A model generated the notes under the pieces. The model was not told the origin of the DNA and searched no databases. It saw only the letters and a program-made list of their open reading frames with translations. From NCBI GenBank assembly GCA_011523945.1, contig WTFU01000192.1, positions 1 through 33,052 of the forward strand: 33,052 nt of DNA. The letters are read 5' to 3'. How positions within the stretch are numbered: position 1 is the first letter of the stretch; each line of letters begins with the position of its first letter. Source of the stretch: Mariniblastus sp. GTDB taxonomy: Bacteria > Planctomycetota > Planctomycetia > Pirellulales > Pirellulaceae. Shown piece after piece: positions 10,777-26,016 of this stretch. A program made the position numbers and the translations under genes.

Positions 10777-13416
10777 ATGATTACCAATCCATTGAACAGA
10801 CATAAAAAAATAAGTATCGGCGATGTTGTTGGCATTGTAATCTTACTGGGCTGCGCCGTCATTCCGCTAACCTCATCCGCTGCCGTTGTTTTACCCAATG
10901 TGTTTAGTGACGGAATGGTCTTGCAGCGAGAGTTACCGGTTCCCGTTTGGGGTACTGCCGAACCCGGCGAAGCGGTGACCGTTCAATTTGCCGGCCAACA
11001 ACATTCGACAATCGCAGACGAAAACGGCAAATGGATGATCAAATTGAATCCACTCTCCACCTCTTCCAAGGGCAGCAAACTGACGGTCAAAGGCTCCAAC
11101 GAATTGGTCTTAAACGACGTCTTGGTTGGAGAAGTCTGGCTCTGCAGCGGGCAGTCAAACATGGCAGACTCGTTCAATCCAAATAAAAACCGCTTCATTC
11201 CTGCTGAAATCCTCAACTCTGACCTTTCCGGATTTCGTGTTTCAACACCGCGAGGCTGGGAGGGCATCAATGACAAATCACAACGATCAATCTCTCGTGT
11301 TGGATTCTATTTTGGATACGAACTTTACCGAAAACTAGACATCCCAATCGGCTTGGTTCTTCGCTACAACTCTGGCACACCGATTCAGGCGTGGATCCCT
11401 AAAATTCAATCGGAAGTAATTCGAAAGCGACTCAACATTCCTGCTGACTGGAACGACGACCAAGAAAACCGAAACCCCGGCGTTCAATTTGAGGACAAAA
11501 TCAATCCAATTATCCCTTTCTCATTCCGTGGCGTTGTTTGGTATCAAGGCGAGCGAAATGCAAAGGCATTTACTGGATGGGAGTACAAGGACCTGCTTCC
11601 CTTTTTAATTCAAACGTGGAGAGAAGTTTGGGCGAAGTCTGCGAAAACAAAGGCCCGAAATTTCCCTTTCTATTATGTGCAGGTTCCAACTCAAGCTAAC
11701 TCAACCAACAATCGATCAGGGCAAACCAGTAATGAATGGCCGTGGCTGCGGGACGGCATGCGGCGGGCACTGGAGCAAAGTCCCAATACGGGGATGGCGG
11801 TCTTTTATGACCATGGCCCCAGTCTGCACCCCGAGGAAAAACGCTATGCCGGAGAGCGACTGTCTCTTTGGGCCCTCGCCAAAGACTATGGAAAAACTGA
11901 TATCGTTTTCTCCGGCCCCCTTTTAAAGGACGTCTCCATCAACAACCAAAAAGCAACGCTGACTTTTGACCACATCGGAAGTGGTCTAGCAAATGCGGAA
12001 GAAGGAGAGCAGCTCAACTATTTTGAAATTTCAGGGGACGATGGAAAGTATTTCGATGCCAACGCCAAGATTATCGGTGATTCGGTTGTGGTCTCCTCGC
12101 CCTCTGTACCCAATCCCGTTCACGTACGGTATTTGTTTAGAAAACCAACCCCTGATCCAAAAATCAGCCTCATTAACAAGGAAGGACTCCCTGCTTCGCC
12201 ATTCATAACAGACGAACGACGTCCAAGTCGTGAAATTCCAGATGAAGCCCCTCTAGGAGAAAAAAAAACGAAGCCCCCAACAACGTCAAATGAAAAAATA
12301 AACCACGACGGGATACCGAGGCTTTCCAAACAGTTCCCCGCTGAAAAACAAACCTTTAAAGAGCAAAAAAGGCTTCCGGATCTAGAAAAAGCCTATATCA
12401 GCATCGCTCCACTGAATCTCAAGGATGGACTTGAGGTTGGCAAACTCAGTCATCCCCTTACCAGTTCAGCAGTTCAATCTTTGATCGACGCCGATCAAGC
12501 CGGAAACTACCAATCCCTCGACAGCATACTAATTTGGAAAGATGGCAAATTAGTATTCGAAATGTATAACCGGCACGGCCGTGTTGACGCGCCGCACTAC
12601 GCAATGTCTGTGACAAAGACATTGACCTCGCTAACATTTGCCAGAGCAATTCAACTAGGTCTCTTTAAAATGACAGACCTGGACAAACCGATCATCGACT
12701 TCATGCCGGAAATTAACCGCACAAAGATCCAACCGGGCGTCGAATCTATTACTCTCCGCGACGCACTCATGATGAAGTCAGGGCTGCGATTCAAAGATCC
12801 CAAAGTAATCAATTCTCTAGGAAACGAATTCAAAAAACAGGCCTACTTTCAAAAACTATTTGAAATCACTTCCCCCGTCACTGAGGCGAGCAAAAAATAT
12901 AAATACAGTGGTGTCGACCCTTCGATGATCATGATGTTGATCGATATTAAAACCGATTCCGACGTACAACAATTCATCAAAAAGGAAATCGCCGATAAAC
13001 TTAAACTCAGTTACGTCTGGGAAAATCAAAGCTGCGGTATTCCCAAATGCGGAGCAGGAAGCAGTTTCACATCACGAAGCCTAGTCAAACTCGGCGTTGC
13101 CGTCCTGAACGGTGGATCATACGACGGCAAACAATTATTTTCCCGTGATTATATCGCTCAGGTCATGGACCCCGGCAAGGGAGCTGGCTATTTCTACTTT
13201 TTCCATAACCGCAGCATTGGAATTTCAAAGCCGGAGATCAATTTTTTCAGTGGAATCGGCGCCGGTGGACAGTACATGTCGATTTTTCCAGAGCTTAACT
13301 TGGTGGCGGTCGCCACGGCTCACAATAAAAAATCAATTAATCTTCCACTCAAGGCAATTGTTGATCATTTGCTCCCACTGTTTTCAACGGACGCTACCAA
13401 CACCCCATCCGACTAA
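10777..13416 (+). CDS. Fusion of SASA/9-O-acetylesterase and serine beta-lactamase-like domains, exported
   Basis: An 879-residue two-enzyme protein. A membrane or signal segment spans about 13-35 (ending LTSSAAVV). Residues about 38-455 form a sialate O-acetylesterase-like SGNH hydrolase: VFSDGMVLQRELPVPVWG, the nucleophile motif LCSGQSNM (Ser127), GVVWYQGERNA, and YDHGPSLHP with His351 before RLSLWALA. A charged, Pro/Lys-rich linker (about 475-545) leads to a class C beta-lactamase-type serine hydrolase. That domain has SVTK (Ser611, Lys614) as the SxxK motif, TLRDALMMKSGL, YSG at 710-712 in place of the usual Y-x-N, and SGIGAGGQYM where the third motif is expected. Beta-lactamase-fold proteins of this sort are often esterases or peptidases, not antibiotic resistance enzymes. 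The pairing suggests removal of acetyl or other ester groups from sugars in the periplasm or outside the cell (inference). ATG 10777 has only a weak purine-rich site upstream. Confidence 0.85.
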   Translation: MITNPLNRHKKISIGDVVGIVILLGCAVIPLTSSAAVVLPNVFSDGMVLQRELPVPVWGTAEPGEAVTVQFAGQQHSTIADENGKWMIKLNPLSTSSKGSKLTVKGSNELVLNDVLVGEVWLCSGQSNMADSFNPNKNRFIPAEILNSDLSGFRVSTPRGWEGINDKSQRSISRVGFYFGYELYRKLDIPIGLVLRYNSGTPIQAWIPKIQSEVIRKRLNIPADWNDDQENRNPGVQFEDKINPIIPFSFRGVVWYQGERNAKAFTGWEYKDLLPFLIQTWREVWAKSAKTKARNFPFYYVQVPTQANSTNNRSGQTSNEWPWLRDGMRRALEQSPNTGMAVFYDHGPSLHPEEKRYAGERLSLWALAKDYGKTDIVFSGPLLKDVSINNQKATLTFDHIGSGLANAEEGEQLNYFEISGDDGKYFDANAKIIGDSVVVSSPSVPNPVHVRYLFRKPTPDPKISLINKEGLPASPFITDERRPSREIPDEAPLGEKKTKPPTTSNEKINHDGIPRLSKQFPAEKQTFKEQKRLPDLEKAYISIAPLNLKDGLEVGKLSHPLTSSAVQSLIDADQAGNYQSLDSILIWKDGKLVFEMYNRHGRVDAPHYAMSVTKTLTSLTFARAIQLGLFKMTDLDKPIIDFMPEINRTKIQPGVESITLRDALMMKSGLRFKDPKVINSLGNEFKKQAYFQKLFEITSPVTEASKKYKYSGVDPSMIMMLIDIKTDSDVQQFIKKEIADKLKLSYVWENQSCGIPKCGAGSSFTSRSLVKLGVAVLNGGSYDGKQLFSRDYIAQVMDPGKGAGYFYFFHNRSIGISKPEINFFSGIGAGGQYMSIFPELNLVAVATAHNKKSINLPLKAIVDHLLPLFSTDATNTPSD

Positions 13417-17888: not shown

Positions 17889-18914
17889 TTAGAATTCGCC
17901 TACAATCTCGCCGCCACTGACGGTTCCAAGACTCCGCCACACCTCTAATTCAATTCTGTCTGTCACGGTTCGCGTCGCACCGTCCATCAGGCCAACATTG
18001 ACCAATCCGCCCGAATGGTAGCTCCGTGAGGTGATCGCTGCATAAGTAGCTTGATCACTCCGCTTTCCCTCCTGCACTGAATTAAAATCAATGTCGTAGG
18101 CTCTTCCTTCATGCTGATAAAGCACTTTGGTATTTGGAGTAAAAACAGTTGTAAATCCAGAATGATGCACCCTGCCATCGCACCATTCCGTGTGCCCGGT
18201 ATTTTTCTGTAAGCCGGGGCCAAGTTTCAATTGCCCGGTGAATCCTAAAAACGCATCCGAAGATGTCGGGGGTTCAGAACCGGGATCTTGTGTGTTTCGA
18301 ATATAAGAGGTGTACGCTTTCACTTCCGCGAGGCAAAGAGTTTGGCTCGCACCGTCTGTCACTCCACCGAAACGGGTTTTACTATTAACGAAAAACACAC
18401 CATCACCTCGCCGCCCATTAACGGGGTCATAAACCAACCAAGTTCCGAAATTAAATCCATAATTCTGTGGATATACTTTCGGGTTGCCCGAGGAATCATT
18501 CCTTACACGGTCGTTGACTTCACTCGCACACTGATACATCGGAATTCTCAGCATCGGGACGCCGGTATCAAGCTGGGCGTCCCAAGCAACATTAAGATCA
18601 ACCGCCTTATAGGAATTACTTTGTTCGCAAAAAGGAAGCAATCTTCCATGAACAGACCACGATCCGTTATTACCCGACAAAACACTTCCGGACTCAATCT
18701 CAAAGCTTGGTGGAAAATGCTGGAAAGCAGATTCATAGTTGTGCGCTGCAAGAACTACTTGGCGAACATTGTTAAGACATGCGGTTCGACGAGCAGCTTC
18801 TCGAACCATTTGAACGGCGGGGAGTAGCATCCCGATCAAAATTCCGATGATCGCGATCACAACTAACAATTCAACGAGAGTGAATCCCCGCTTGGGACGA
18901 GCTAAAAATTGCAT
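17889..18914 (-). CDS. DUF1559 protein with prepilin-type leader
   Basis: A planctomycete DUF1559 (SBP_bac_10) family protein, the pilin/pseudopilin-like group present in tens to hundreds of copies per genome, with no firm function. From ATG 18914 it begins MQFLARPKRGFTLVELL: a short basic leader, the prepilin peptidase site G-F-T-L-V-E and a long hydrophobic helix, then AAHNYESAFQHFPPS typical of the family. Near the C-terminus the H-x9-DG signature appears with one extra residue (HSGGLVNVGLMDG, His300 to Asp311). The frame is open up to TTG 18950, but this would put a second hydrophobic stretch before the leader, so ATG 18914 is chosen; no strong Shine-Dalgarno. The leader DNA is identical over 65 bases to that of the divergent paralogue at 19552. 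A weak terminator just upstream (19002-19030) separates it from the small membrane protein gene. Confidence 0.9.
   Translation of the reverse strand: MQFLARPKRGFTLVELLVVIAIIGILIGMLLPAVQMVREAARRTACLNNVRQVVLAAHNYESAFQHFPPSFEIESGSVLSGNNGSWSVHGRLLPFCEQSNSYKAVDLNVAWDAQLDTGVPMLRIPMYQCASEVNDRVRNDSSGNPKVYPQNYGFNFGTWLVYDPVNGRRGDGVFFVNSKTRFGGVTDGASQTLCLAEVKAYTSYIRNTQDPGSEPPTSSDAFLGFTGQLKLGPGLQKNTGHTEWCDGRVHHSGFTTVFTPNTKVLYQHEGRAYDIDFNSVQEGKRSDQATYAAITSRSYHSGGLVNVGLMDGATRTVTDRIELEVWRSLGTVSGGEIVGEF
18814..18878 (-). repeat. Left arm of a perfect 65-bp inverted repeat in DUF1559 leaders
   Basis: Read on the minus strand, from CTCGTTGAATTG to CCCGCCGT, this stretch is identical base for base to 19579-19643 on the plus strand. 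It encodes the prepilin helix LVELLVVIAIIGILIGMLLPAV. The flanking codons diverge at once on both sides. Confidence 0.95.
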
Positions 18915-19001
18915 AGAACGAAATAATCCGCCAAAAATTAGAGCAAACAAGAGGGCTGCGCTAACAAATCCAGCCTTCTCTTCTATTATGACACTCCGAT
19001 T

Positions 19002-19551: not shown

Positions 19552-20583
19552 GTGAAAAAGACCAAAAGAGGTTTCACCCTCGTTGAATTGTTAGTTGTGA
19601 TCGCGATCATCGGAATTTTGATCGGGATGCTACTCCCCGCCGTCCAACAAGTCCGAGAGGCCGCGCGTCGCATTTCCTGCGCGAACAACCTTAAGAACGT
19701 TATGCTTGCGATGCACAACTACGAAAGTGCATACAAGTACTTTCCAATGGGTGCCGAAGCTGAATTTGGAACAATGCTTCCAAACACGAATCTTTACATG
19801 AGTGCCTTTGCTTCCACACTCCCATTCATTGAGCAAGAAAACCTGCAGAACCTAATTGATTTCACACGACCGTGGGAGCAACAAACCGCGCAGGTCGCAA
19901 GCACCCCGGTCAACTCATTTTTCTGTCCTTCCAACGTTGGCGACAGCCCCATCAAGGACCCTGAGTTCGGATTTCTAGCCCAGGCACTCGGACTGCCGAT
20001 TGGCGACACCTATGGTGTAACAACCTATGTTCTTTCGCGCGGATCAGGCTACAAGTGGTGCAACCAACCCTATTCGCTTCAAGGCAAAGGAATGTTTGAT
20101 ATCGGCATGAAAGTTCGATTCAGCGATATTACCGACGGCTCAAGTAATACGATCGGTATTGGCGAAGGAGCAACAGGAAAAGATTGGAAAGTTTCTGTTG
20201 GTCAAGGTAGCGAAGGTCCGCCGGCAACGGATGCGTTCGGCGGCGAAGTTGCTGCAAATCAAGTCTGGCTTGTTCCTCAACCGAACAGTACCGTTTTCCA
20301 GTCTCAAGGATTATCGCCTCGAACCAGCATTTTCGCATCCACTGCAGATTACCTGAACAAAAATCCGGTTACCGAATCGCTGATTGACGACTCGGGATTC
20401 GCAGGTACAGCCGGTGGAACCGCTAACGATAATGATTCGACAAGTAACTTCCGGAGCAACCATCCTGGAGGATCAAATTTTGCTTTTGGTGACGGTTCGG
20501 TTCAGTTTATCGCTAATCCTTCTATTGATGTCTATCAGGCCATTTCTACTATTCAGGGCCGAGAAGTATTTGAGTTGGACTAA
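19552..20583 (+). CDS. DUF1559 protein with prepilin-type leader
   Basis: The second DUF1559 pilin-like protein, 343 residues, a standard length. It begins with GTG and a short leader MKKTKRG, cut before FTLVELL, then a hydrophobic helix to about residue 31 and AMHNYESAYKYFPMG. The middle has the family pattern FSDITDGSSNTIGIGEG, and the C-terminus carries the exact H-x9-DG signature (His304, Asp314-Gly315, NHPGGSNFAFGDGSVQFI). Type II/IV-like secretion and prepilin peptidase processing are implied by the leader; assembly into fibres is not demonstrated for this family. Gene-specific parts are unlike the neighbouring paralogue, which makes the 65 bases of identical leader DNA notable. A large hairpin about 60 bases after the stop (20641-20682) probably ends or protects the mRNA. 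Confidence 0.93.
   Translation: MKKTKRGFTLVELLVVIAIIGILIGMLLPAVQQVREAARRISCANNLKNVMLAMHNYESAYKYFPMGAEAEFGTMLPNTNLYMSAFASTLPFIEQENLQNLIDFTRPWEQQTAQVASTPVNSFFCPSNVGDSPIKDPEFGFLAQALGLPIGDTYGVTTYVLSRGSGYKWCNQPYSLQGKGMFDIGMKVRFSDITDGSSNTIGIGEGATGKDWKVSVGQGSEGPPATDAFGGEVAANQVWLVPQPNSTVFQSQGLSPRTSIFASTADYLNKNPVTESLIDDSGFAGTAGGTANDNDSTSNFRSNHPGGSNFAFGDGSVQFIANPSIDVYQAISTIQGREVFELD
19579..19643 (+). repeat. Right arm of a perfect 65-bp inverted repeat in DUF1559 leaders
   Basis: Identical to the reverse complement of 18814-18878, about 700 bases away. All 21 codons are the same including their third positions, while the coding sequence on either side is only loosely similar. Confidence 0.95.
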
Positions 20584-20639: not shown

Positions 20640-20683
20640 TACACAGGTTGGCCGTTAAGTGTTTTTTGACGGCCGACCGTGTA
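20640..20683 (+). terminator. Large stem-loop after the second DUF1559 gene
   Basis: GGTTGGCCGT (20646-20655) pairs with ACGGCCGACC (20669-20678) over 10 bp with one G-T pair. TACAC/GTGTA extends it by 5 bp around one bulged A (20645). The 13-base loop contains a T6 run, but no T-tract follows the stem. It lies between the DUF1559 gene and the aldehyde dehydrogenase gene and is best read as a 3'-end or transcript-separating structure. Confidence 0.55.
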
Positions 20684-20774: not shown

Positions 20775-22460
20775 TTGAACGCGGCTGCATCGTCGGAAAG
20801 TCAAGCGGAATTAGATTCCGCCATTCTTAAGCTGAAACAGGGCGCACAGTCACTTAAGACGATGTCCTTAAAGCAGCGCTACCAGCTAATTGATTCTTGC
20901 GCGGCCAACATTCCTACTTTCGCCCAACAATGGGTCGAAGTCGCCTGCAATGCGAAACAAGTTTCACTCACGCAAACCGCAGCAGCCGAGGAAATTCTCG
21001 CAGGTCCCGCGACGTTACTTAGATACCTGCGACTGCTATCCCGTTTATTTCAAGATGTCGAACAGGTCGGCGCCCCGCAACTTCCCAACGCACCCCACTG
21101 CAATCAAATAGGTCGAACTTGTATTCCCATTTTGCCGGTGAGAAGTTTATTTGATTCCTTGATTTTCCGCGGATTGACCGCGGAAGTCTGGATGACCCCT
21201 GAGCACGACGGTCAAGATCTTTTTGCCGAACTACCTTCCAACAAGAACTCTTTGGGCAATGGGAAAATTGCCGGTATTCTGGGAGCTGGGAATGTCAGCG
21301 CTATTCCGGCAACCGATATGCTTTACAAGATCTTTCACGATGGTGAGGTCGTTTTACTGAAACTCAATCCCGTCAATGAATACCTCTATTCCACGTTTAG
21401 CTCGGTCTTTGCCCCATTAATTGAAAGCCAACTGCTCCACATTATACGTGGTGGAAATGAAGTTGGAAAAGCGATCGTCCAACATCCAGAAATTGACTCA
21501 CTCCACGTAACCGGATCGCACCATACCCATAATGCCATTGTTTGGGGGGCGAATGCCGAAGAACGAGCCGACCGCATTGCGAACAACGCTCCTCTGGTAA
21601 ACAAACCAATTACGAGTGAGCTTGGAAATGTCACTCCTTGGATTGTCGTACCGGGCAATTACACAAACCGCCAACTCCAATCCCAAGCCGAACATATCGC
21701 CGCGTCTATCGTCAACAATGCATCCTTCAATTGTGTTGCCACCAAAATGATTGTGACGAGTAGCGACTGGCCTCAACGTTCTGATTTTCTCGCTCGGATT
21801 GAAACGCTGTTAAAGAAAATTCCTCCACGATACGCTTACTATCCAGGAGCCGGGGAAAGATTTGAGCGCGCTAATGCCGGCGGCGTCATGCCCAACTCAT
21901 CCAATCAACTCCCGTGGACCTTGATTCAAAACGCAACCCCGGAATCTGCAGAGCACCTTTTCCAGGAAGAATCATTCGTATGCGTATGTGCAGAAACGAT
22001 GCTACCCGGTCGCGATCCGGTCGAGTTCTTAAATTCAGCTGTTGAGTTCGCCAATGAAAAACTCTTCGGAACCCTCTGTGCAACAATCACTGTGCCAAAG
22101 GCATTCGAGCAACAAGAGAAGTTTGCCCTGGAAAAATCAGTTGCTAAATTGCGTTACGGTTCGGTGTGTGTCAATCAATGGGCAGGGGTCGTCTATGGAT
22201 TAATGACGCCCCCATGGGGAGGCCATCCAAGTTCTAATCTCGAATCACCGCAAAGTGGCATCGGACACGTCCACAATACTTTTTGCATAAAAAACTTTGA
22301 GAAAACGGTACTCCGCGGGCCGCTCTGCAGCCATCCCAAGCCGGTTTGGTTCCATTCTCACAAAACAGCGAACCAGGTTGGCTGGTCGCTGTTGAAACTT
22401 TACGATAAACCCTCCATCACACGCTTGCCGCTACTGTTCTTTCACGCTCTGCGTGGTTAA
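20775..22460 (+). CDS. Aldehyde dehydrogenase family protein
   Basis: A 561-residue member of the NAD(P)-dependent aldehyde dehydrogenase superfamily, longer than the usual 480-500. Visible are the Rossmann region IAGILGAGNVSAIPATDMLYK with Lys196 in VVLLKLNPVNEY, the segment DSLHVTGSHHTHNAIVWG where G-S-x-x-x-G normally sits, the general base Glu282 in TSELGNVTPW, and the nucleophile Cys320 in NNASFNCVATKMIV. The stretch EESFVCVCAETMLPGRD matches the E-x-F-G-P region only loosely, so this is a divergent branch and the substrate cannot be named. The C-terminal 60 residues (HSHKTANQVGWSLLKLYDKP onwards) are an extension. The start is TTG 20775, supported by AGGA 8 bases upstream (20763-20766). 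It is followed after 64 bases by the beta-helix lipoprotein and cytochrome genes, suggesting a shared oxidative pathway. Confidence 0.85.
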   Translation: MNAAASSESQAELDSAILKLKQGAQSLKTMSLKQRYQLIDSCAANIPTFAQQWVEVACNAKQVSLTQTAAAEEILAGPATLLRYLRLLSRLFQDVEQVGAPQLPNAPHCNQIGRTCIPILPVRSLFDSLIFRGLTAEVWMTPEHDGQDLFAELPSNKNSLGNGKIAGILGAGNVSAIPATDMLYKIFHDGEVVLLKLNPVNEYLYSTFSSVFAPLIESQLLHIIRGGNEVGKAIVQHPEIDSLHVTGSHHTHNAIVWGANAEERADRIANNAPLVNKPITSELGNVTPWIVVPGNYTNRQLQSQAEHIAASIVNNASFNCVATKMIVTSSDWPQRSDFLARIETLLKKIPPRYAYYPGAGERFERANAGGVMPNSSNQLPWTLIQNATPESAEHLFQEESFVCVCAETMLPGRDPVEFLNSAVEFANEKLFGTLCATITVPKAFEQQEKFALEKSVAKLRYGSVCVNQWAGVVYGLMTPPWGGHPSSNLESPQSGIGHVHNTFCIKNFEKTVLRGPLCSHPKPVWFHSHKTANQVGWSLLKLYDKPSITRLPLLFFHALRG

Positions 22461-22524
22461 CGCAGCCAGCGAAAAATCAATATTGCACAGCTTCTGATGC
22501 AAATAAATGATCAGGAACAAAAAA

Positions 22525-23814
22525 ATGAAAAAACTATCAATCGCGATTCTTCTGGCCCTTACTCTGATTGCCAGCGGTTGTGAAAAATCTCCATCACCTC
22601 CGGCCGCAAACTCCACAAACGAGACTGTCGCTACTGCAACGATCGTCATCACTCCCGGCGCCGATGCTCAAGCAGCGGCCGAACAAGCATTTATCCTTGC
22701 CGAACCGGGCGACATCATTGAATTTTCCGCGGGAAAATTTGAGTTTGACGGTACGCTTTCCTTGGACGGCGTCGAAGATGTAACCATTCGTGGAAAAGGA
22801 ATGGAACAAACCATTCTTAACTTTGCCAAATTCAAAGATGGAAAAGGGGGAGAAGGAGTTAAAGTAAAAGCCGATCGTTTTACCATTGAAGATCTAACCA
22901 TCGAAGACACCCCCGGCGACGCGATTAAACTTCAGGATTGTAACGGGCTTACGATGCGACGCGTTCGAACTTGGTGGACAAATGGACCGTCTTCTGAAAA
23001 CGGCGCTTACGGCTTATATCCAGTTCTCTCAAACAATGTGCTGATTGAAAACTGTGTTGCCCATTGCGCTTCGGACGCAGGCATCTACGTCGGACAATCC
23101 AAGCAGGTAATCGTTCGCAATTGCATTACCGAAAAAAATGTCGCGGGAATTGAAATCGAAAATTGCATTGGTGCCGATGTCTACGATAACGTCAGCAAAA
23201 ATAACACCGGTGGTATCCTCGTTTTCTCACTGCCGGGGCTGACAATTAAGAACGGTGCCGATTGCCGCGTTTTCAACAATACGATTACGGCCAACAACCA
23301 TGAAAACTTCGCCAAAGAAGGAGCAATGGTCGCCACGGTACCCTCAGGAACCGGCTTGATGATCATGGCAAATGACCGTGTCGAGGCATCTGGAAATACG
23401 TTTGATGGTAACGACGGAGCTGGCTGTTTAATCGTAAGCTTTCTGACCACACAGAGGCAGTTCGATGACGCTAAATACGATCCCTATCCTGAAGCTATTT
23501 CCATCAAAAACAACACATTTAAAAACGGAGGTTCGAATCCGCAGGGAAGTCAGTTCAAGCTGTTCACCGATGCGACGGGCCAAAATCTACCCGATATCGT
23601 TTACGACGGCATACTAAATCAAACGAGACTGGTAGAAGGGAAGCTACCGGCCGAACTCAGTGTTTCCATCATCGACAATGGCGAAGCAACTTTTGTTAAT
23701 CTTGACCTGGGAACCCTGTTTGCAGGCGGACAACCCAACATGACCACCGATATCACCGGCTTCTCACACCCCTTGCCCCCGGTCAAAACGGTCACGATTA
23801 AAGGCGTTAAATAG
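22525..23814 (+). CDS. Parallel beta-helix lipoprotein (TIGR03805-like)
   Basis: From ATG 22525 the 429-residue product starts with a lipoprotein signal MKKLSIAILLALTLIASGC (Cys19 is the likely lipidated residue). After ITPGADAQAAAEQAF and AEPGDIIEFSAGKFEF come repeated right-handed beta-helix turns: VTIRGKGMEQTIL, FTIEDLTIEDTPGDAIKLQDC, VLIENCVAHCASDAGIYVGQ, VIVRNCITEKNVAGIEIENC, ADVYDNVSKNNTGGILVF. This matches the family TIGR03805, which recurs beside the diheme cytochrome family TIGR03806, the next gene here; the function of the pair is unknown. The frame is open to ATG 22507, but AGGA at 22513-22516 lies 8 bases before 22525 and the signal then begins properly. The fold is typical of carbohydrate-binding or carbohydrate-cleaving proteins; no catalytic residues can be assigned. 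Confidence 0.88.
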   Translation: MKKLSIAILLALTLIASGCEKSPSPPAANSTNETVATATIVITPGADAQAAAEQAFILAEPGDIIEFSAGKFEFDGTLSLDGVEDVTIRGKGMEQTILNFAKFKDGKGGEGVKVKADRFTIEDLTIEDTPGDAIKLQDCNGLTMRRVRTWWTNGPSSENGAYGLYPVLSNNVLIENCVAHCASDAGIYVGQSKQVIVRNCITEKNVAGIEIENCIGADVYDNVSKNNTGGILVFSLPGLTIKNGADCRVFNNTITANNHENFAKEGAMVATVPSGTGLMIMANDRVEASGNTFDGNDGAGCLIVSFLTTQRQFDDAKYDPYPEAISIKNNTFKNGGSNPQGSQFKLFTDATGQNLPDIVYDGILNQTRLVEGKLPAELSVSIIDNGEATFVNLDLGTLFAGGQPNMTTDITGFSHPLPPVKTVTIKGVK

Positions 23815-23868
23815 GGAGTTTACAAGCTTGGCCTTGAATTCAACCGCAACCGACCGATAATTATAAGC

Positions 23869-25011
23869 GTGTTTAAACTCCACTTACAACGATTGAGTCT
23901 AACCTCGGAATCTTCCTGGATTTCGATTGCGCTGGTGACGTTAGTCATCGCGCTAGGATGCGAACAAAAGAGAGTCCATGTATCCCCCTCTTCCGGTGAT
24001 AGCATCCAGAATGCTGCCACGCAACTTTCAAAAAGCCGGCTCAGCAAATACCTTCCCAAACTATCGAACTACGGTATCTTTCAAATGCCAATGAAAGAAC
24101 TAAAGCCTGCCAATGAGGTGATCGAATACGATTTGAACACGCCTCTGTTTAGCGACTACTCTCAAAAACAAAGACTGATTAAATTGCCTCCGGGGACTCA
24201 GATCAACTACAAACCGAACGGTCCACTCGACTTTCCCGTTGGAACCGTGATTGCGAAAACATTCTATTACGCCCAAGACCTCAGCGCAGCGTCGTCGCCC
24301 CGACAACTCGTCGAAACGCGAATCATGGAACATCGACCAGAAGGATGGGTGGGTATTCCCTATGTCTGGAATTCAGAGCAAACTGATGCCGAACTTGCCG
24401 TGATCGGCGCGACGGTCGATATCTCCTGGGTTCACAGCGATGGCACCCCCCGCTCCAACGCCCATTTGGTACCGAATCTGAATGATTGCAAACGATGTCA
24501 CACAGATACAGAGATGCACCCGCTTGGTCCCAAGGCGGCCAATTTGAATCGCCATCTTGCAGTTAACGGCAATCAACAAAATCAATTAGAGCATTGGGGA
24601 GACATTGGAATCATTAACGAACTTCCTGAACTTTCAGAAATTCCAAAGCTTGCCGTATGGAATGACGAGTCGACAGGTTCGGTGGATCATCGCGCCCGTG
24701 CTTATCTCGAAGTCAATTGTGCTCATTGCCACAATCCGATTGGCCCCGCCAGAAACTCTGGACTCCACTTAAACATCGAAGAGACCAATCCCTATCACCT
24801 CGGAACGTATAAAATCCCAGTCGCCGCAGGCAAGGGAACTGGTGGACGGCTGTACGGGATCGTGCCCGGAAAACCGGACGAGTCCATTCTCGAATATCGA
24901 ATGCGAACGACAAAATCGGGTGAGATCATGCCCGAATTCGGAAAATCACTGGTGCATGATGAAGGACTCGCTTTAATTCGTACGTGGATCAAAGAGATGA
25001 AAGCAGACTGA
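23869..25011 (+). CDS. Diheme c-type cytochrome, SO2930 family (TIGR03806-like)
   Basis: A 380-residue exported cytochrome. The N-terminus has a hydrophobic segment and a possible lipobox (VIALGC, Cys31), so it is probably anchored on the periplasmic face. The central family block reads YDLNTPLFSDYSQKQRLIKLPPG, then DFPVGTVIAKTFYY, ETRIMEHRPEGWVGIPYVWN. These are followed by two c-heme sites, CKRCH (207-211) and CAHCH (284-288), with Met354 in EIMPEFG as a possible axial ligand. This layout is that of the SO2930/HNE_0200 family, the partner of the beta-helix family encoded by the preceding gene, 54 bases upstream. GTG 23869 is used; the ribosome site is weak and TTG 23893 is an alternative. 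The likely role is electron transfer from a periplasmic oxidation, which is inference. Confidence 0.88.
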   Translation: MFKLHLQRLSLTSESSWISIALVTLVIALGCEQKRVHVSPSSGDSIQNAATQLSKSRLSKYLPKLSNYGIFQMPMKELKPANEVIEYDLNTPLFSDYSQKQRLIKLPPGTQINYKPNGPLDFPVGTVIAKTFYYAQDLSAASSPRQLVETRIMEHRPEGWVGIPYVWNSEQTDAELAVIGATVDISWVHSDGTPRSNAHLVPNLNDCKRCHTDTEMHPLGPKAANLNRHLAVNGNQQNQLEHWGDIGIINELPELSEIPKLAVWNDESTGSVDHRARAYLEVNCAHCHNPIGPARNSGLHLNIEETNPYHLGTYKIPVAAGKGTGGRLYGIVPGKPDESILEYRMRTTKSGEIMPEFGKSLVHDEGLALIRTWIKEMKAD

Positions 25012-25044
25012 CTATTTCCCCAAGCCGTTGCCGCGGGAATCATC

Positions 25045-26016
25045 TCAGCCAATTTGACGCAAGGTCTCCGAAGGCAATTCACCAAATTGAGTCTTATACG
25101 ATTGTGAAAAATCGCCAAAGTGAAAAAATCCGAACTGGCACGCAACCGAAGTCACCGTAGTTTCCTCAGCACGACATTGCTTCAGCCTGTGCCGAACTTG
25201 ATGTAAACGGTGACGTTTTAAATAATTCATCGGCGAGATACCAAGACATTTTTTGAACGCATATTGCAGCGTCCGCTCACTGACTTGCGTTGCCTCACAC
25301 AAGTCAACCATCCGCAAGTGCTCCTCGGGCCGCTCTTTCGAATAATCTTCTGCGACGCGAACCAGAGCCCTTGATTTCGCCAACCCTTTTGATTTTTCTG
25401 AAATTTCAATTTCAGGATACTCCTCCACGATAGAACGATGGATGGAGTAAGCAACTAGCATCAATGCACGATCACGCAGCGCTTCCTGAATTTTTAACCG
25501 CTGCTCCGCCTCTAAACCGTGGGAATTAAACTGCCGAATAAAATCTGGCCAACTCGCTACCCAATAACTGGACTCTAAATCGACCATCGCGCTGTGCATT
25601 GTGGCACTTTGCTCAAGAGCATCTCCGAACAAAGTCTGGTAATAAGGCTCGAGTTGCTCGGGGGGGACAAATATCGAACTGGAGGAAAATGCACCGTCGT
25701 TAATACAGCTGTCAAAATCAAACGTCGGCGGCATGATAAACACACGACGGGCATCGATTCGCTCTCCGGCAAAATGCCCTCCGTGGGCCGTATCAAACAA
25801 GGTAGCTACGTACCGGCGAGCAGGCAGCCGCGACCGAACCACAATCGACTGATTAACAAATAAACTCAATAATTTGATTCCGTCTAATTCAATGACGGTT
25901 TGCGAGCTTCGAAATTCTGTCTCGGTTAGCTGCACCAACTCCAACGACGTCCCAAATAACGAACCGTCCCAATCGGATGGGTCGGTAATGATTTGTGTCA
26001 TCGTTTGGATTTTCAT
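25045..26016 (-). CDS. AraC-family transcriptional regulator (EutR-like)
   Basis: A 323-residue regulator. The C-terminal 95 residues hold the two helix-turn-helix units of AraC proteins: MVDLCEATQVSERTLQYAFKKCLGISPMNYLKRHRL and then VTSVACQFGFFHFGDFSQSYKTQFGELPSETL. The FGFFHFGDFS pattern is nearest to EutR, the ethanolamine-utilisation activator, among those I know. The N-terminal 220 residues are an effector domain without a recognisable cupin motif. No eut genes are near. ATG 26016 has GGTGA closely upstream. The gene ends 33 bases from the convergent diheme cytochrome gene and diverges from hom across 322 bases. The nearest plausible targets are the aldehyde dehydrogenase/beta-helix/cytochrome genes, but that is positional inference only. 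Confidence 0.87.
   Translation of the reverse strand: MKIQTMTQIITDPSDWDGSLFGTSLELVQLTETEFRSSQTVIELDGIKLLSLFVNQSIVVRSRLPARRYVATLFDTAHGGHFAGERIDARRVFIMPPTFDFDSCINDGAFSSSSIFVPPEQLEPYYQTLFGDALEQSATMHSAMVDLESSYWVASWPDFIRQFNSHGLEAEQRLKIQEALRDRALMLVAYSIHRSIVEEYPEIEISEKSKGLAKSRALVRVAEDYSKERPEEHLRMVDLCEATQVSERTLQYAFKKCLGISPMNYLKRHRLHQVRHRLKQCRAEETTVTSVACQFGFFHFGDFSQSYKTQFGELPSETLRQIG

Follow-up and report, generated by a model that had tools for sequence, protein, structure and literature searches.

In a 33,052-nucleotide stretch of Mariniblastus sp. DNA (contig WTFU01000192.1, referred to here as the window), the gene for a divergent aldehyde dehydrogenase (ALDH) stands directly ahead of two adjacent genes that encode a beta-helix protein with a lipoprotein-type signal (designated BHLX) and a predicted diheme c-type cytochrome (designated CYT). 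We are confident that the ALDH and the BHLX-CYT pair are functionally linked within the Planctomycetota, and this is the firm part of the analysis, since the co-occurrence counts place the arrangement far beyond chance. The recurrence of the combination in many planctomycetes points to an uncharacterised oxidation pathway. Our preferred reading, to which we assign a probability of roughly 0.4, is a three-gene oxidation module in which the substrate would be oxidised by membrane-anchored proteins, CYT would be the electron sink and the ALDH would complete the oxidation inside the cell. The three genes are arranged as follows.

20775 to 22460, forward strand: divergent ALDH, 561 residues, TTG start, from the open reading frame (ORF) call.
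22507 to 23814, forward strand: BHLX, beta-helix protein with lipoprotein-type signal, family TIGR03805, 435 residues, from the ORF call and a profile score of 378.2 bits.
23869 to 25011, forward strand: CYT, predicted diheme c-type cytochrome, family TIGR03806, 380 residues, GTG start, profile score of 383.3 bits.

These genes, together with an AraC-family regulator gene considered further below, had been named in a first-pass annotation of the window, and the ORF list confirmed all four at the positions given there. Of the two intergenic distances in that annotation, the 54 bases between BHLX and CYT were reproduced, but the 64 bases between ALDH and BHLX hold only from the second ATG of BHLX; counted from the first ATG the gap is 46. 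Profile searches also upheld the proposed match to the TIGR03805/TIGR03806 pair, as BHLX scored above the TIGR03805 cut-off of 141.5 bits and CYT above the TIGR03806 cut-off of 313.3 bits. In passing the curated cut-offs and in being adjacent, the window genes resemble the known pair, for which the family note leaves room for fusion of the two proteins. A literature search found no paper describing the function of the pair.

Co-occurrence was analysed in a class sample of 297 genomes, with ALDH counted at E 1e-20 or better and BHLX above its cut-off. ALDH was present in 54 genomes and BHLX in 50, with 41 genomes having both (p 4e-30 by Fisher's test, kinship ignored), and by genus the corresponding numbers were 28, 27 and 20 of 155 genera (p 2.5e-13). 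The ALDH gene was adjacent to BHLX, on the same strand and upstream, in 24 of the 41 genomes bearing both, while the two were unjoined in the assembly of the other 17, either on different contigs (15 genomes) or on one contig at distances of 0.5 and 1.45 Mb (G443 and G504). One of these 17, G464, has a cut cytochrome gene beside its ALDH and a cut BHLX-cytochrome gene at the end of another contig, and its separation is probably a contig break. ALDH regions were fetched for 14 of the 17 unjoined genomes and, G464 apart, none of the stretches obtained contained BHLX or CYT. In the other three (G473, G536 and G553) the only ALDH is a remote one (E 7e-78 to 1.3e-84). In a phylum sample of 294 genomes, TIGR03806 was found above its cut-off in 12 and ALDH in 22. 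All seven class genomes within this sample that have both, the window's included, carry the ALDH adjacent to the cytochrome. G065 has the two on two short contigs. Four genomes (G044, G071, G107 and G166) carry the cytochrome but no ALDH, and in G166 no BHLX was seen beside the cytochrome.

Gene order and fusion were compared over 18 linked loci. By computed gap the ALDH is upstream of BHLX in 12 of these, and it is also upstream in L155, which has no computed gap. In five loci (L096, L103, L109, L126 and L184) it lies downstream of CYT instead, close to the pair in L126 and L184. One fused gene encodes BHLX and CYT in 12 of the 17 linked loci where both are comparable, a BHLX frame of fusion length (at least 735 residues) is present in 28 of the 50 BHLX-bearing class genomes, and both TIGR03805 and TIGR03806 were confirmed on one chain in L066. 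The best explanation of a fusion shared by many relatives would be that BHLX and CYT act as one unit. Together, adjacency, changes in order and co-occurrence when unlinked bear out the first-pass proposal of the ALDH as partner of the pair in Planctomycetota. In G509, G358 and G443 (L195, L198 and L203) two cytochromes in tandem were seen behind BHLX; the two of L195 and the second one of L198 were tested, and all three scored above the TIGR03806 cut-off.

The pair extends well outside this phylum. In a scan of contig databases with the cytochrome, BHLX stood beside CYT in 69 of the best 80 of 584 confirmed loci, that is, of the closest ones, and the pair loci among these 80 were titled Bacteroidota, Planctomycetota lineages, Neomarinimicrobiota, Acidobacteria, Gemmatimonadetes and Proteobacteria. 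Within the same 80, the ALDH model matched only loci titled Planctomycetota or members of that phylum. When 27 pair-bearing genomes were searched in full, Lacipirellula alone had this ALDH; the other 26 comprise two Planctomycetota (Isosphaeraceae and Uabimicrobium) and 24 not so titled (L144 being named only 'bacterium'). The window thus differs from the pair as known elsewhere in that part of the Planctomycetota adds a dedicated divergent ALDH, which is absent from the 24 other genomes searched.

A further line of evidence comes from the cytochrome and its relatives. CYT has CxxCH motifs at residues 207 and 284, and in an alignment of 92 rows (some records duplicated) the two Cys and the His of each site are conserved at 1.0; on these two sites the protein is a predicted diheme c-type cytochrome. 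Nineteen proteins match the CYT model at 185-222 bits and are TIGR03806 cousins below the cut-off. All ten of the cousins tested, from the 19 listed, carry a pyrroloquinoline quinone (PQQ) glucose/sorbosone dehydrogenase (GSDH, PF07995) domain on the same chain. These fusions suggest that this type of cytochrome often serves a dehydrogenase on its own chain, and that in the pair the beta-helix takes the dehydrogenase's place. The window CYT is homologous to the C-terminal cytochrome domain of the fusions, which we take to be periplasmic dehydrogenases with a built-in electron sink and to which we liken CYT. In contrast to the pair, which has a beta-helix for the catalytic propeller, the fusions score below the TIGR03806 cut-off. 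No match to PF07995 was found in BHLX or CYT of the window. The second-best TIGR03806 match in the window's genome is itself a GSDH-cytochrome fusion (G000 contig C189:22874-23773; L002 and L072). GSDH-cytochrome c proteins with cellulose-binding domains are described for Teredinibacter in a paper whose relevant section does not show kinship to TIGR03806 and cites structural work in which domains of GSDH-cytochrome c proteins were unable to donate electrons to lytic polysaccharide monooxygenase (PMC12055684). In the list given in a network paper, Shewanella SO_2930 and SO_2931 appear as outer-membrane or extracellular cytochromes (PMC4837345).

The fold of BHLX was taken from an AlphaFold2 model of the fused relative L066 (61 rows) and not of the window protein. 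The model (predicted local distance difference test score, pLDDT, 90.7; predicted template modelling score, pTM, 0.88) consists of repeating coils of 22-23 residues and represents a right-handed parallel beta-helix. The first Foldseek rows were AlgE4 mannuronan C-5 epimerase and the polysaccharide lyase RbmB, followed by polygalacturonases, fructotransferases and phage tailspikes. At position 4 of the strand in four successive coils are Lys141, Tyr171, Tyr194 and Glu216 (window numbers), which are invariant in 32 of 32 sequences; in a wider set of 79 rows Glu216 stands at 0.99 and the other three stay at 1.0. Judged from the strand register, these four residues are likely to be stacked in one line. 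Asp190, Gln197, Glu218 and Asn219, all close to this line, are invariant as well. No His, Met or Cys is invariant in the 32 rows, the best conserved being Cys183 (88%), His334 (78%), Cys175 (72%) and Met287 (69%), which argues against copper binding and heme ligation by BHLX. A weak match of 41.7 bits likens BHLX to NosD, a copper chaperone-like beta-helix (TIGR04247), but this is far under the cut-off of 300, and NosD-like copper binding was rejected on the missing invariant residues.

Gene content, conservation, the fusion, the co-occurrence with the ALDH and the two CxxCH sites make up the observed frame of the three-gene reading. BHLX and CYT would be membrane-anchored periplasmic proteins forming one unit; BHLX has a lipobox-like ASGC motif and CYT a less typical lipobox, signals that are read by the general lipoprotein rule, and the pair probably sits outside the cell membrane. 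BHLX would bind a sugar-, uronate- or alcohol-like substrate along the invariant Lys-Tyr-Tyr-Glu line of coils, and the diheme CYT would strip electrons for the respiratory chain. The cell would take up the product or an aldehyde-carrying derivative of it, and the cytosolic ALDH would oxidise the aldehyde to the acid with NAD(P). The domain swap, the fold and the neighbours are the grounds for this pathway, in which the location, the substrate class, the direction in which electrons flow and the passing of product to the ALDH are inferred. The pathway sketched in the first-pass annotation, with ligand binding, electron uptake and finishing of an aldehyde, would fit this anatomy. Three handles make the pair testable, namely a conserved enzyme that accompanies it in one phylum, the exchange of domains with a PQQ-type dehydrogenase and a defined line of invariant residues.

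Several results weigh against this reading. BHLX has no recognisable redox cofactor site, and the exit of electrons from the substrate is unexplained. The fold matches are weak, as the top row reached a template modelling (TM) score of 0.51 by target length with a root mean square deviation of 6.4, and the highest TM score by target length among the best 50 fold rows listed was 0.54. This ALDH was found in none of the 24 pair-bearing genomes not titled Planctomycetota, from which it follows that the pair does not need it, and the Isosphaeraceae and Uabimicrobium genomes searched were also without it. Among 44 immediate same-strand neighbours of the pair, which were hand-picked for closeness and length and include one from Uabimicrobium (Planctomycetota), no shared family revealing a substrate appeared in the 25 of 75 matched families listed; a general sorting domain was the most frequent of those noted (7/44). 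The 24 adjacent cases span seven genera, with 22 in family f3 (13 of these in genus g7) besides the window and G509, and the class sample includes 13 genomes with the ALDH without BHLX and nine with BHLX without the ALDH. Finally, in three of the linked loci with a downstream ALDH (L096, L103 and L109) 0.55, 0.8 and 2.4 kb separate it from CYT, and the 2.4 kb interval of L109 contains a frame on the opposite strand.

The fold neighbours are mostly polysaccharide-active beta-helix enzymes (epimerase, lyases, polygalacturonases and fructotransferases), and a line of Lys, Tyr and Glu is what acid-base sugar chemistry needs. The pair could accordingly be built around a polysaccharide-modifying lipoprotein of the lyase or epimerase kind, with the cytochrome doing other work (redox sensing or a by-product) and the ALDH clearing aldehydes from sugar breakdown. 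Conserved Lys and Tyr on neighbouring coils of AlgE4 may be comparable to the BHLX line. The AlgE4 A-module and RbmB share the right-handed beta-helix fold with the BHLX relative, but neither is among the sequence-profile matches of BHLX up to E 10, and no counterpart in BHLX could be assigned to their other catalytic residues. Sugar-related families do occur among the 44 neighbours elsewhere (sulfatase in 3/44, 3-keto-disaccharide hydrolase in 2/44 and GH92 in 1/44), and the Burkholderia cenocepacia protein Bcam1339, labelled TIGR03805, belongs to an exopolysaccharide gene cluster (PMC3584217). Even so, the fusion of BHLX with the cytochrome in many genomes is hard to explain if the two are unconnected, and CYT has high-scoring cousins that share a chain with a dehydrogenase. 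We regard this account as unlikely, although it keeps a real share of the probability.

The ALDH itself scores 45.1 bits against Pfam Aldedh (PF00171), above the gathering cut-off of 23, and reached no named equivalog cut-off among the curated NCBIfam models, the best score being 27.1 bits against 800. Cys320, Glu282, Asn173 and Lys196 are invariant and Glu399 is nearly so in 28 aligned rows. Cys320 and Glu282 align with those of a solved ALDH, so the catalytic Cys and Glu are retained; Asn173, Lys196 and Glu399 would have the roles customary in the family. The predicted model (pLDDT 92.8) had only ALDHs among its best 50 fold matches listed. The enzyme shares fold and catalytic Cys/Glu with known NAD(P)-dependent aldehyde dehydrogenases, but differs in its sequence, with at most 17% identity among the 50 fold alignments listed. 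As it has no evident signal sequence, it is probably cytosolic.

We also read 35 ALDH loci without an adjoining BHLX, a set that includes L184 (probable contig break) and several genomes that have the pair elsewhere. A glucose-methanol-choline (GMC)-type alcohol oxidoreductase family was found near the ALDH in five of these and confirmed by Pfam in three (L078, L177 and L187), and in L078 and L187 the GMC gene immediately adjoins the ALDH on the same strand. Such neighbours fit an ALDH that finishes aldehydes from alcohol-oxidising partners, in a minority of loci. Apart from GMC, the tested neighbours of ALDH loci without the pair were housekeeping or mixed genes. A 3-keto-disaccharide hydrolase gene lies directly downstream of the unlinked G504 ALDH (L188, 8014-8772, forward strand). 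In a tree of 48 ALDHs with two long rows dropped, class members and linked loci form one group (support of 100 in the Shimodaira-Hasegawa-like approximate likelihood ratio test, SH-aLRT). Linked and unlinked ALDHs are mixed in this tree, with four changes of the 'linked' label, at least two of them forced by well-supported branches. An earlier grouping of the pair-linked ALDHs in one clade (15 of 15 in a 30-ALDH tree with the two long rows) was withdrawn after the 48-row tree.

Should the ALDH be a general detoxification enzyme, its link to the pair would be one of chance or inherited gene order only. This is consistent with the 13 class genomes that have the ALDH without BHLX, with the 15 of 22 ALDH-bearing genomes of the phylum sample that have no above-cut-off CYT beside it, and with the concentration of adjacency in one family. 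Co-occurrence without linkage in up to 17 genomes and the changes in gene order are, however, not expected from inherited order alone, and we find the explanation decidedly unlikely.

The heme ligands of CYT bear on another alternative, in which the cytochrome is peroxidase- or MauG-like and uses peroxide or oxygen on the beta-helix or its bound substrate, the ALDH handling the resulting aldehyde. Outside the CxxCH motifs CYT has a single invariant Met (Met354), and none of its further His is fully invariant, the best reaching 87%; one heme would thus be left without an obvious second ligand, and the three invariant Tyr of BHLX are in keeping with such chemistry. On the other hand, a sequence-profile search of solved structures with CYT yielded nothing usable: no diheme peroxidase was among its 13 matches, the best of which had an E of 0.16 and most of which were unrelated proteins or small cytochromes c. 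The exchange of domains with a PQQ-type dehydrogenase also speaks for electron uptake. We give this alternative a low probability.

Since BHLX has no known redox cofactor, it is possible, though improbable, that the pair represents a periplasmic oxidoreductase of a new class, with the beta-helix standing in for the PQQ propeller as the catalytic domain before the diheme cytochrome. Lys141, Tyr171, Tyr194 and Glu216 would then be the active site, possibly with a bound quinone or with a quinone of its own derived from Lys/Tyr, and in Planctomycetota the product would go to the dedicated ALDH. Should the beta-helix turn out to be catalytic, the protein would represent a novel type of periplasmic oxidase or dehydrogenase.

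Two more features flank the three genes.

25045 to 26016, reverse strand: AraC-family regulator gene facing the operon, 323 residues, a neighbour only.
20640 to 20683, forward strand: strong terminator-like hairpin in the interval that separates the ALDH gene from the prepilin-like gene upstream of it.

The description of the AraC gene as EutR-like proved loose, as its product scores 87.3 bits with EutR (cut-off 319) and is nearer to AndR at 103.2 bits (cut-off 350), neither curated cut-off being reached. Across planctomycetes the neighbourhood survey that the first-pass annotation had called for found the ALDH conserved beside the pair but the AraC gene not. A scan with the AraC model over L061-L168 and L176-L215, which include eight of the 24 class genomes where ALDH and BHLX adjoin, found a homologue beside the pair in L089, L090 and L091, the nearest kin, and in no other scanned locus. 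The gene faces the operon in the window, L089 and L090. In L091, a Mariniblastus relative, it is cut to about 163 N-terminal residues (11193-11681, reverse strand), with the DNA-binding part lost. In the five g7 genomes read, the facing slot is occupied by another family, of which the one member tested is a GGDEF protein, and in G024 the cytochrome is followed, on its own strand, by ThiF. The AraC gene was therefore rejected as a module partner and is a local neighbour outside the conserved set. A regulated module of four genes, as the first-pass annotation had it, is in consequence very improbable, its facing orientation in three loci being outweighed by the missing homologues, the differing slots and the reduced L091 copy.

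The hairpin has a folding energy of -28.3 kcal/mol (z -5.94), and none of 200 shuffles was equally stable; it has no clear T run behind it and is absent from the terminator scan listing. Promoter and terminator scans of the window gave results at chance level. Two DUF1559 prepilin-like genes are present in the window (19552-20583, forward strand, and 17889-18950, reverse strand). In the five g7 genomes read, and likewise in L090 and L091, the gene immediately upstream of the ALDH is a homologue of the first of these two, and in G569 (L190) the pilin and ALDH genes are kept together though BHLX and CYT are on another contig.

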